This document shows, piece by piece, positions 16,890 to 57,223 of a DNA stretch of 64,000 nt. Below the pieces are notes generated by a model. That model was not told where the DNA came from. It did no database searches and saw only the letters and a list, made by a program, of their open reading frames with translations. Position 1 is the stretch's first letter. Each line of letters starts with the position of its first letter. Source of the stretch: an uncultured Spartobacteria bacterium (GTDB lineage Bacteria; Verrucomicrobiota; Verrucomicrobiia; Chthoniobacterales; Chthoniobacteraceae). The DNA is taken from positions 62,001-126,000 of the forward strand of contig CAIXGS010000004.1 of the NCBI GenBank assembly GCA_903919125.1. Direction: 5' to 3'. The position numbers and the translations under genes were made by a program.

Positions 16890-17153
16890 TTAGCGACGAG
16901 TTCCAATGATTTGATCGTATTCACTATGGTGACCGATCCAGAACCACACCATATCAGCACCGTCTTCTACAGCGATCGCTCTGTAATGAATGCCAACCCT
17001 TGCAGACCAAAATCTACCTACTTTTTTGAAATGAATTGAAGGGTGCCTCGAATCGCCTTTGAGTATTTCGAAGTTCTCATCTGCAAGTTTTTGAATTTCC
17101 GTGGGAAGTTCTGAGTAAAACCTCCAAAACTTTGAACTGGCGTGATGAATCAC
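16890..17153 (-). CDS. RelE/ParE-like toxin
   Basis: This 87-residue protein starts at a GTG that overlaps the stop of the upstream small gene by 4 bp (GTGA). The sequence has the RelE/ParE shape: an N-terminal helix with ELPTEIQKLADENFEIL, then strands HFKKVGRFWSARVGIHYRAI and a final WFWIGHHSEYDQII. Such toxins usually cleave mRNA on the ribosome or poison gyrase; which applies here cannot be said. The tight overlap with a 66-residue partner fits a type II toxin-antitoxin pair. This appears complete. Confidence 0.75.
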   Translation of the reverse strand: MIHHASSKFWRFYSELPTEIQKLADENFEILKGDSRHPSIHFKKVGRFWSARVGIHYRAIAVEDGADMVWFWIGHHSEYDQIIGTRR

Positions 17154-17350
17154 AGTTTCGAGCAGCCGCCCGCTTTGAATTCGTTCAGGGCTTCGTCGGC
17201 GAGCGAATCTAATCTTCCAGCAACTGCGTCTTGTTTAAATTGCTGATCCCAAGCCGAGGCGTCAAATTGCTCAAACCAGTTACGTAGAATCGCAAGTTCA
17301 TGGCGCGAAAGCCCCTGTATGGCAGACTCGATTTCTTCGACGGTGCTCAT
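17150..17350 (-). CDS. Antitoxin partner of RelE-like toxin
   Basis: This 66-residue acidic protein has an N-terminal helix EEIESAIQGLSRHELAILRN and a C-terminal acidic helix, as in small antitoxins paired with RelE-type toxins. It lies immediately upstream of the toxin gene with a 4-bp stop/start overlap, so translation is probably coupled. No clear ribbon-helix-helix or Phd DNA-binding motif is visible, and autoregulation is only inferred from the usual behaviour of such pairs. Confidence 0.68.
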   Translation of the reverse strand: MSTVEEIESAIQGLSRHELAILRNWFEQFDASAWDQQFKQDAVAGRLDSLADEALNEFKAGGCSKL

Positions 17351-18270: not shown

Positions 18271-19863
18271 TTATTTTTTCCCAGAAATTGTTACGCGAAT
18301 GGTAGTGGAGCCTGCTGCGTTTGTTACTTTACAATCATAGTAGCTGCCAATGTCGTCGCTAAAAACAACGTCCATAAGTCCAGGCGTGCTGCCGCCAAAG
18401 CTATAGGTTGGTAAATTATGATCTCTCTCATAGTAAGCACCAAGCCAAGGGTGGCCAGTGCTGTACAGGCCACTAGGCGCAATAGGGTTCCCGCGGAACC
18501 CATTTGGCCTCAAGTACTCCTCACCGGAACTAATAAAGTACCCATTTTTTCTCTCAGTATTAAGCATCGGCTTTCCGTCTCTCGACCATGAAACGGTATG
18601 AGGAGTCTTACTACTTATGTTAGGTTTCAATGCTATGACAAAGTAACCAGCGCCATTGCCGATTACGCAGCCCGCTGCATCATAGCTTCTAGGTTTTGAA
18701 CTGTAATCGATGGGTTTTAGTGAGACTGGGAATACTGAGAATCCCTTAGCTTTCAGAACAGTAAAATCAAAATAAACTTCACCCGGTTTAGGGAGAGCAA
18801 TTGAGACGGACGGAAGCGTTCCCACTTTTAATACGGCATTTGCGCTGGTAACTGATCCCGCAGGATTAGAAACGGTTACACAATATGTGCCTTGATCTGT
18901 GAGTCGGGCACCTTGCACTGTAAAAGTCTTCTGTGTCGCACCTTCAATTTTTACGCTATTTCTCATCCACTGATAATTTATCAAAGTTTCATCCACAACA
19001 GATACAGCCATGCTAGCTTTTTCTCCTACTTCTACAGTTGGGGATCCCGGCTGCTGGTTGATAAAAGGAGGATAAACCTTCGGTGGGTTGACAGTCAGAG
19101 GAGAGGGAGTGCTAGACCAAGAACCCACAGCACTAGATACAGTAACGGAGTAATATCCAGCATCTATGGATTTCGCAGAAGAAATTAATAATTGGTTTCC
19201 AGTGGCACCGGGAATCATAACTCCGTCTTTCTTCCATTGGTATTGCGGATTTACAAGTTTACCGGCATCTGCCTTGAAGATCACTTGCGCCTTTTGATCA
19301 GCAGTGTAGGATTTGGGAGAGACAAGAACTTGTCTTTTTTCCACTTTCACAGTCCACATTCCCGTAGAAATTCCAACCTTCTTGAAGGCTGCGCATCCAT
19401 TCTCGCCCGCGCCGGCTGGCAGTGTGGCCGAGATCTGACACCTGTACGCGCCAGCATCCTCGACCTTCAGGTTCGGAATGCTGAATGGGACATAATTATA
19501 CTTGCTGCAGCTGCCTACAAGTAAATCGTTTTTGAAAAAACTATAGTTAAGTATATAGTCGCAATTCTTCCAATAACTGTAATATCTGGACCCTGACCAG
19601 CCAGCGAAAGAAACATCAATACCCGCGTAGGGATCTAATTTCAATGAATCTCCCTCCACAGCTGTGATAGTATTGTTTTGTTTCGGTCCATAGTACATGT
19701 CGAAATACTTTGGACCAATAAAGTTTGATGGATTCCCGTATTCATCGGTACCTCCATAGCTCTGAGGAGCCGGTGTGACAATGAATAATAAAATTGCTGC
19801 AAACCATGAGAATACATCACAATTGCAATATGCTGGCGTATTTGTTTTTTTTCGATTTATCAT
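18271..19863 (-). CDS. Secreted protein with immunoglobulin-like domains
   Basis: This 530-residue protein has an N-terminal hydrophobic export segment (residues 15-35). Three immunoglobulin-like domains are recognisable from their F-strand signatures: DAGAYRCQIS, DAGYYSVTVS and DQGTYCVTVS, with a Trp core residue in each (for example YQWKKDG and YQWMRN). A fourth, more divergent strand-rich domain forms the C-terminus. Such verrucomicrobial Ig proteins are usually surface or extracellular adhesins or scaffolds. The coding sequence is AT-rich compared with the main operons, like both neighbours, which supports joint acquisition. No sorting motif was seen at the C-terminus. Confidence 0.75.
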   Translation of the reverse strand: MINRKKTNTPAYCNCDVFSWFAAILLFIVTPAPQSYGGTDEYGNPSNFIGPKYFDMYYGPKQNNTITAVEGDSLKLDPYAGIDVSFAGWSGSRYYSYWKNCDYILNYSFFKNDLLVGSCSKYNYVPFSIPNLKVEDAGAYRCQISATLPAGAGENGCAAFKKVGISTGMWTVKVEKRQVLVSPKSYTADQKAQVIFKADAGKLVNPQYQWKKDGVMIPGATGNQLLISSAKSIDAGYYSVTVSSAVGSWSSTPSPLTVNPPKVYPPFINQQPGSPTVEVGEKASMAVSVVDETLINYQWMRNSVKIEGATQKTFTVQGARLTDQGTYCVTVSNPAGSVTSANAVLKVGTLPSVSIALPKPGEVYFDFTVLKAKGFSVFPVSLKPIDYSSKPRSYDAAGCVIGNGAGYFVIALKPNISSKTPHTVSWSRDGKPMLNTERKNGYFISSGEEYLRPNGFRGNPIAPSGLYSTGHPWLGAYYERDHNLPTYSFGGSTPGLMDVVFSDDIGSYYDCKVTNAAGSTTIRVTISGKK

Positions 19864-19914: not shown

Positions 19915-20616
19915 TTAATCAATTTGATTTTCACTTTCGTCCTCATCTTCGAAAGATGCTTTTGACTGTCCTATCATATTCCGTTCTGACGCTATTTCTT
20001 TAAGCGTACTAACGAGTGCAGCTCGGAAACCGCGAAGGTCAGCAAGTTTTCCGAAGCTCTTATTGCTTTTCTCCTCCTTGGCGTCGATGAGCAGTTGATA
20101 TTTTGACAGCATCAAACCGGAAAGGTCGGATGCAATTTCCAGAGAATCTGAAAAAACATAGACTCTTTCTGAGTCCACGCCCTTAAGGGCAAAGGCACAG
20201 CCTAACTCGAAATAAACGTTCCGATTGCCCCCGGAGACGTCAAAGATCAGAACATCTGCTTCTTTGATTCGGCGCATGATAGAGCCGACTATTGTTGCCC
20301 CATGACGGGCTCGGAGCCGTTTTACGGAAATTCGTAATGGGATAACTCCCGGCTCTCGATCCTTCGCTAACTGCTCAAGAGTTTGAGCCGCTGCCTTGAC
20401 CTCATCGCGCAAAAAGCACCAGTGACTATTCAGTCCACTTTTTGTTTCCCCTGATTGGCCACGACCCCAATCGTAACCAATTAAGACTTGAATATACGGT
20501 GACTGACCAGTGTCAAACTGCTTGCTGCTTGCTGCTTGCTGCTTGCTGCTTGCTGCTTGCTGCTTGCTGCTTGCTGCTTGCTGCTTGCTGCTTGCTGCTT
20601 TGGATTCATCACTCAT
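19915..20616 (-). CDS. TIR-like / nucleotide-binding protein with heptamer-encoded N-terminus
   Basis: This 233-residue protein starts at the ATG at 20616. Residues 6-33 are nearly four copies of a 7-residue unit (SSKQQAA) encoded by about 12 copies of a 7-bp DNA unit. The globular part carries ADVLIFDVSGGNRNVYFELG, a pattern seen in TIR-like and nucleoside deoxyribosyltransferase-like folds, where the Glu is often catalytic. No ATG or GTG start is visible between the repeat and the domain, so translation must cross the repeat. Each gain or loss of one unit would shift the frame. The downstream partner, if any, is unclear, and a defence role is only an inference from the fold. Confidence 0.6.
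   Translation of the reverse strand: MSDESKAASSKQQAASSKQQAASSKQQAASSKQFDTGQSPYIQVLIGYDWGRGQSGETKSGLNSHWCFLRDEVKAAAQTLEQLAKDREPGVIPLRISVKRLRARHGATIVGSIMRRIKEADVLIFDVSGGNRNVYFELGCAFALKGVDSERVYVFSDSLEIASDLSGLMLSKYQLLIDAKEEKSNKSFGKLADLRGFRAALVSTLKEIASERNMIGQSKASFEDEDESENQID
20518..20600. repeat. Heptanucleotide tandem array (unit CTTGCTG, about 12 copies) inside a coding region
   Basis: The array is a nearly perfect head-to-tail run of a 7-bp unit located 14 bp inside the start codon of the TIR-like gene. Three units make 21 bp, giving the 7-residue protein repeat. Because 7 is not divisible by 3, slippage changes the reading frame. Confidence 0.92.
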
Positions 20617-55847: not shown

Positions 55848-55997
55848 CAGGGCCTGAGCCGTAAGCCTTTTTGGTCAATCGCTTAGTACCCCAAACCTCC
55901 AGAACCCAGAACCCAGAACCCAGAACCCAGAACCCCCAGAACCCCCGGAACCAAGAACCAAGAACCAAGAACCAAGAACCAAAAAGTGTCTGTCCCC
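55848..55997. repeat. Heptamer array 1 with conserved flank and GTGTCTGTCCC motif
   Basis: A 55-bp flank (55848-55902), containing CAATCGCTTAGTACCCCAAA, is followed by tandem 7-bp units AGAACCC (about 5) and AACCAAG (about 4-5), and then AAAAAGTGTCTGTCCCCC. The flank recurs at 57043-57098 beside the second array. Confidence 0.8.
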
Positions 55998-57018: not shown

Positions 57019-57223
57019 AAAGTGTCTGTGCCCCGCGTTTTACAGGGCCTTAACCGTCGGCTTTTTGGCCAATCGCTCAGCACCCCAAACCTCCAGCACC
57101 CCAAGCACCAAGCACCAAGCACCAAGCACCAAGCACCAAGCACCAAGCACCAAGCACCAAGCACCAAGCACCAAGCACCAAGCACCAAGCACTAAGCACT
57201 AAGCACTAAGCACTAAGCACTAA
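57019..57223. repeat. Heptamer array 2 with conserved flank and motif copy
   Basis: AAAGTGTCTGTGCCCCGCG (57019-57037) is followed by the same 55-bp flank as array 1 (57043-57098), then about 13 units of CACCAAG and 4-5 units of CACTAAG. The last units overlap the 3' end of the membrane protein gene at 57206. Confidence 0.88.

Follow-up and report, generated by a model that had tools for sequence, protein, structure and literature searches.

The window, by which we mean the whole 64,000-nucleotide stretch of DNA analysed here, carries on its minus strand a gene for a TIR-like protein of 233 aa, whose 5' coding region contains a perfect tandem repeat of a 7-bp unit. The features of the locus are as follows:

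19915-20616, minus strand: TIR-like ORF, with a 5-codon leader, heptamer-encoded AASSKQQ repeats, a TIR/NDT-like core and an acidic tail
20614-20616, minus strand: ATG1, in the assembled phase the sole in-frame ATG, GTG or TTG upstream of the core
20607-20612, minus strand: GTG-ATG pair that lies before the tract, in frame +1, at +4 and +7 nt from ATG1
20518-20600, minus strand: perfect tract (CAAGCAG)x11.9, encoding AASSKQQ heptapeptide repeats
19915-20514, minus strand: TIR/nucleoside deoxyribosyltransferase (NDT)-like core with conserved RLRARHG and NxNVxFELG motifs
20206-20208, minus strand: codon of Glu137 in the ELG motif, invariant in six aligned family members
18271-19863, minus strand: Ig-domain gene (530 aa, predicted secreted), 51 nt past the TIR-like stop codon, a candidate operon partner

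On the sense strand, TRF reports the repeat as (CAAGCAG)x11.9 (listed as CTGCTTG) with 100% matches, starting 13 nt past the ATG, in agreement with an earlier note on this DNA that had described about 12 copies of a 7-bp unit just inside the start codon. The tract is 83 bp long; in 30 randomised versions of the window generated with a first-order Markov model, no period-7 tract exceeded 18 bp, and the longest period-7 tract anywhere in the real window measures 92 bp. The unit contains no stop codon in any of its three frames, so all frames read through the tract as AASSKQQ repeats, a segment (residues 6-37) whose pLDDT stays below 50 in the full-length model. As in simple sequence repeat (SSR) contingency loci, the translated 5' region holds a tandem repeat whose unit is not a multiple of three.

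In the window gene, as in its second copy described below, the stretch separating the tract from the first core strand contains no in-frame ATG, GTG or TTG, and translation of the core must therefore pass through the tract. A start downstream of the array, which according to the earlier note would have spoken against its reading, was scanned for and is rejected. SD-like motifs precede only 3 of the 28 long ATG-started ORFs in the window, so the lack of one before ATG1 is normal and says little; a consensus scan of the gene's strand found no sigma-70 promoter ahead of it. When the unit number was varied in a simulation, the ATG1 product was full length at 0 and at +/-3 units and otherwise ended after 29-49 aa, whereas at +1 or -2 units the GTG-ATG pair opened an ORF of 226-234 aa including the whole core. 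Three units do restore the protein, as had been proposed, but the companion statement that a change of one unit switches it off is half right: it holds for the loss of one unit or the gain of two, and fails for the gain of one, where the second start opens the core. Changes in unit number are thus predicted to give two ON phases and one OFF phase, the second ON phase depending on the GTG-ATG pair being used in cells, as we infer it may be. An ON phase in the assembly would be expected by chance with a frequency of between one third and two thirds.

The core resembles TIR and deoxyribosyltransferase proteins in fold and motif, as the earlier note had it, but does not reach the curated profile thresholds. 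PF05014 (nucleoside 2-deoxyribosyltransferase) matches the window core with 22.2 bits (E 1.6e-4), below its gathering cut-off of 28.8, and PF10137 (CAP12-PCTIR TIR) with 22.1 bits (E 1.6e-4), below its cut-off of 24.7. PF10137 matches all six family members weakly (best E 1.1e-5), as PADLOC TIR effectors match four of them; CARF membership was set aside, the PADLOC CARF3 match (E 5.9e-5) being confined to one member, with none in the other five. The structure prediction that the note had proposed (AlphaFold2, two-sequence alignment) yields a moderate model, with pTM 0.66 and mean pLDDT 63.6. Foldseek gives no structure match at E <= 0.001, its top entry being an NDT at E 9.2e-3, and the EF-Tu, decarboxylase and receptor entries in its list were taken as noise of the moderate model. 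VIA-align, by contrast, places this pTM 0.66 model jointly closest to DNPH1 (Z 10.1, rmsd 2.9, 120 residues) and to the SfSTING TIR 7un8_C (Z 10.1, rmsd 2.8, 114 residues), and across solved NDT and DNPH1 structures gives Z 9.5-10.1 over 112-127 residues, values to be read together with the modest Foldseek scores. The profile alignment places Glu137 at the glutamate of the ELG motif in solved NDTs (E88 in the mutants 8pqq/8pqs) and at that of the FEFG motif in Cap12; within the limits of the model, the core accordingly has both the PF10137 fold, from the 7un8_C match, and the position of its catalytic glutamate.

Profile and model evidence together make the core a divergent member of the NDT/TIR fold (Cap12-like) that scores under the Pfam cut-offs. 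It shares with the TIR domains of Cap12/PCTIR (PF10137) and with NDT/DNPH1 (PF05014) the position of the glutamate and, by VIA-align on the moderate model, probably the fold class, and differs from both in scoring below the curated cut-offs, in consisting of one domain with no STING, cyclase or other sensor attached, and in having its own RLRARHG motif. Since the ELG glutamate is invariant, the core most likely cuts a nucleotide, NAD for example, at an N-glycosidic bond; that this putative activity and effector role derive from a pTM 0.66 model and sub-threshold profiles counts against the reading preferred below.

No terminator-like site was found on the relevant strand between the TIR-like gene and the Ig-domain gene that follows it, the product of which is probably secreted, judging from its N-terminus. 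In three other genomes (G013, G024 and G390), the TIR-like gene is directly followed by a gene with an FGE-sulfatase domain, the G013 partner also having nine Ig stretches, with a spacing that ranges from a 4-nt overlap to a 5-nt gap:

L093, 8120-14823: TIR-like/FGE-sulfatase pair
L094, 5373-7102: TIR-like/FGE-sulfatase pair
L100, 7298-9181: TIR-like/FGE-sulfatase pair

The pairing of the TIR-like gene with a gene for a surface or secreted protein thus seems to recur across genomes. In two further genomes a small gene follows the TIR-like gene (L097, 5964-6290; L095, 1263-1721); these small genes have no Pfam match and resemble each other by eye around TLTY. Among the neighbours scanned, a subset of the surrounding ORFs, there was no recognised defence family, such as the cyclase or cyclic-nucleotide sensor that a CBASS or Pycsar system would place beside its effector. 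Elsewhere in the window (16890-17350), two adjacent ORFs of 87 and 66 aa resemble, judged by eye, a toxin-antitoxin pair of the RelE/HigB type, with no PADLOC match.

The genome to which the window belongs (4.34 Mb in 87 contigs) has one further copy of the TIR-like gene, 58% identical, at C48:13-669. Contig C48 starts inside a perfect (CCAGCAG)x13.1 tract at the position homologous to that of the window tract, and the 3' flanks of the two tracts align (SDAAQSSYIQ against FDTGQSPYIQ). Its core shifts reading frame along its length, and a TAA precedes the position of the acidic tail; these frame breaks, the early stop and the position at a contig end point to a pseudogene or to contig-end or assembly errors, while the window copy is intact across the whole core. 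Aligned across 143 codons, the two copies share 71% of their nucleotides, and 52% at third positions, with dS about 1 and dN/dS about 0.2, which indicates that both were under constraint for most of their history. The units of the two tracts differ by one base (CAAGCAG vs CCAGCAG), and both tracts are perfect. At such divergence, a tract without renewal would be expected to be full of substitutions; slippage has therefore made one tract or both uniform again after the copies diverged. The sequences thus attest to turnover of the tract, which is not the same as present-day switching, and an independently homogenised tract at the homologous site makes phase variability of the gene likelier.

The TIR-like gene is patchily distributed. 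Full-length relatives occur in 7 of 213 genomes of the order (that of the window, G013, G024, G094, G120, G151 and G585), the gene is absent from all 11 other genomes of the genus (G001-G011, one genome per species), and searches of phages, plasmids and viral contigs found none, while a scan of genome contigs turned up only a copy already known, from a Spartobacteria MAG; in one of these genus genomes, G005, the best relatives of the flanking genes sit on separate contigs. The N-terminal tails of the relatives differ in length. The five closest relatives from other genomes lack an N-terminal tract, and neither G585 nor two more distant loci have a period-7 tract near the start.

Heptamer tracts as such are not peculiar to this gene. 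In the genome of the window, surveyed through a 381-kb sample plus pattern searches, tracts belonging to a related unit family, HMAGMAS, lie at about 16 places; the same family was found in 31 of 117 genomes of the order. Within the sample, the exact tandem repeats long enough for the length filter had a period of either 7 (9 rows) or 15 (3 rows). The other tracts are mainly intergenic or ahead of genes, and several stop 5-20 nt short of a same-strand start codon, a proximity judged from distances and orientation since the random control was unfair, random positions inside ORFs being counted. In this genome, heptamer tracts form an interspersed class of repeats, the greater part of which lies outside genes. 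The units CAAGCAG and CCAGCAG appear in the tract list only at the two gene copies, and among the tracts seen these two, in one gene family, are the only ones that must be translated.

Some further observations concern these other tracts. The window holds two more, at 55899-55982 and 57101-57223, each with a similar sequence ahead of it (GGGCCT..., then TTTTTGG.CAATCGCT.AG.ACCCCAAACCTCCAG), and both look like the terminus of a short interspersed element. Tracts lying 5-15 nt before a same-strand start, possible translational leaders, occur both in the genome of the window and in a relative of the same genus, G003. The pre-start heptamer tracts are:

L066, 3235-3262
L068, 3140-3216
L071, 3000-3069
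L072, 4611-4631
L087, 6894-6921
L089, 2919-2953
L092, 2111-2145

Contig C34 (L069, 1-154) starts within a CCAACAA-type tract of about 150 bp that is followed by a 419-aa ORF. Among relatives in the order, the heptamer pattern matches 175 times in G059 and 49 times in G097, with few matches to a reversed control; G034 and G101 match the reversed control pattern only, which suggests other families of repeat units there.

Our preferred reading, to which we give a probability of roughly 0.6, is that the tract is a slipped-strand contingency locus acting on a TIR/NDT-fold gene by a neuO-like mechanism. Polymerase slippage on the tract would alter the number of units, and each change would shift the frame of the core relative to the upstream starts, because 7 equals 1 modulo 3. 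ATG1 would feed one phase, the GTG-ATG pair 4-7 nt further on could feed another, and the remaining phase would yield a short peptide, so that in living cells a clonal population would comprise expressing and non-expressing members, the two ON phases being perhaps unequal in strength. The repeat peptide would serve as a length-tolerant tail before a cytosolic NDT/TIR-fold domain. The likely benefit would be random silencing of a costly or self-toxic effector, and the OFF phase may also lower the downstream Ig-domain surface gene through polarity. In its fullest form, which we offer only tentatively, this would be a two-ON/one-OFF heptamer switch of a TIR-fold immune-type effector in a verrucomicrobium, not a known pathogen, with random armed and unarmed fractions of cells and two gene copies that carry different units and switch independently.

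Because heptamer tracts are interspersed through this genome, the main rival is an incidental origin, in which neutral or 5'-leader proliferation of heptamers hit a tolerant ancestral N-terminal tail, was inherited by both copies and was kept perfect by slippage, the switching itself being unselected. The roughly 16 tracts of the HMAGMAS family, the majority outside recognisable genes, the variable length of the relatives' N-terminal tails and the rank of heptamers as the most abundant long-unit repeat class in many bacteria (PMC4679880) all fit this account, which we nevertheless regard as less likely, given that the translation-obligate tract is confined to this gene pair and present in both of its copies. 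Moreover, a neutral tract that slips would still switch the frame, and the mechanism would operate without selection.

Two other accounts have less in their favour. The gene could be dead or mis-started, its start having been lost or replaced by a non-canonical codon past the tract, which would then belong to the 5' leader, like the repeats ahead of other genes here; the tracts that stop shortly before same-strand start codons and the frame breaks of the C48 copy are compatible with this, but the absence from both copies of any canonical in-frame start between tract and core, together with the intact core and constrained evolution of the window copy, makes it improbable. Very improbable, in our view, is that the tract tunes length rather than switches, three-unit steps altering the length of the repeat peptide and hence activity, as reported for NeuO. 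Slips of one unit should happen much more often than steps of three, which counts against such tuning, as does the low model confidence of the repeat segment. In its favour, the repeat peptide is translated in frame and probably tolerates changes in length, and longer repeats are reported to confer higher NeuO activity (as cited in PMC13001214).

The closest parallel to the contingency locus proposed here is neuO of E. coli K1, carried by the CUS-3 prophage, which has 5'-AAGACTC-3' heptanucleotide repeats in its 5' coding region and is ON when the repeat number is divisible by three (PMC13001214). Both genes have a heptanucleotide tract in the 5' coding region whose slippage would switch the frame, but the parallel is one of mechanism only: (i) neuO has the unit AAGACTC and encodes a capsule O-acetyltransferase, whereas the unit here is CAAGCAG and the protein, on a verrucomicrobial chromosome, is of another kind, with Pfam matches that are NDT/TIR/CARF-like, not acetyltransferase; (ii) here two ON phases are predicted, owing to the additional start in frame +1; and (iii) variation is proven for neuO and proposed for the present gene. 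The SSR loci of Haemophilus influenzae include AACAACC heptanucleotide tracts before or within the ORF (PMC2651432) and likewise have, as candidate phase switches, tracts just inside or before an ORF; unlike the present case, they are mostly tetranucleotide, affect surface and LPS genes of a host-adapted species and vary in tract length between strains (PMC2651432). Interspersed heptamers are also known from other phyla, TAACTGA in Beggiatoaceae and Cyanobacteria and GGGAATC in Xanthomonas and Nostoc (PMC4679880, PMC4692102), and resemble those of this genome in forming many related tracts, often near gene ends; those repeats are mostly non-coding, in contrast to the tract described here, which is translated within the gene in both copies.

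A limited search of the open literature found no case of a TIR protein combined with phase variation, nor of tandem-repeat switching in a verrucomicrobium, and the earlier note's remark that a phase-variable immune-type or signalling effector would be new there survives to that extent. SSR phase variation is familiar chiefly from host-adapted species, in their surface and DNA-modification genes. A switch in a TIR/NDT-fold effector, if true, would extend it to intracellular effectors and would suggest bet-hedging of costly or self-toxic defences, and the duplicated gene, with its separately homogenised tracts, makes it possible to test directly whether tracts of this kind are maintained.
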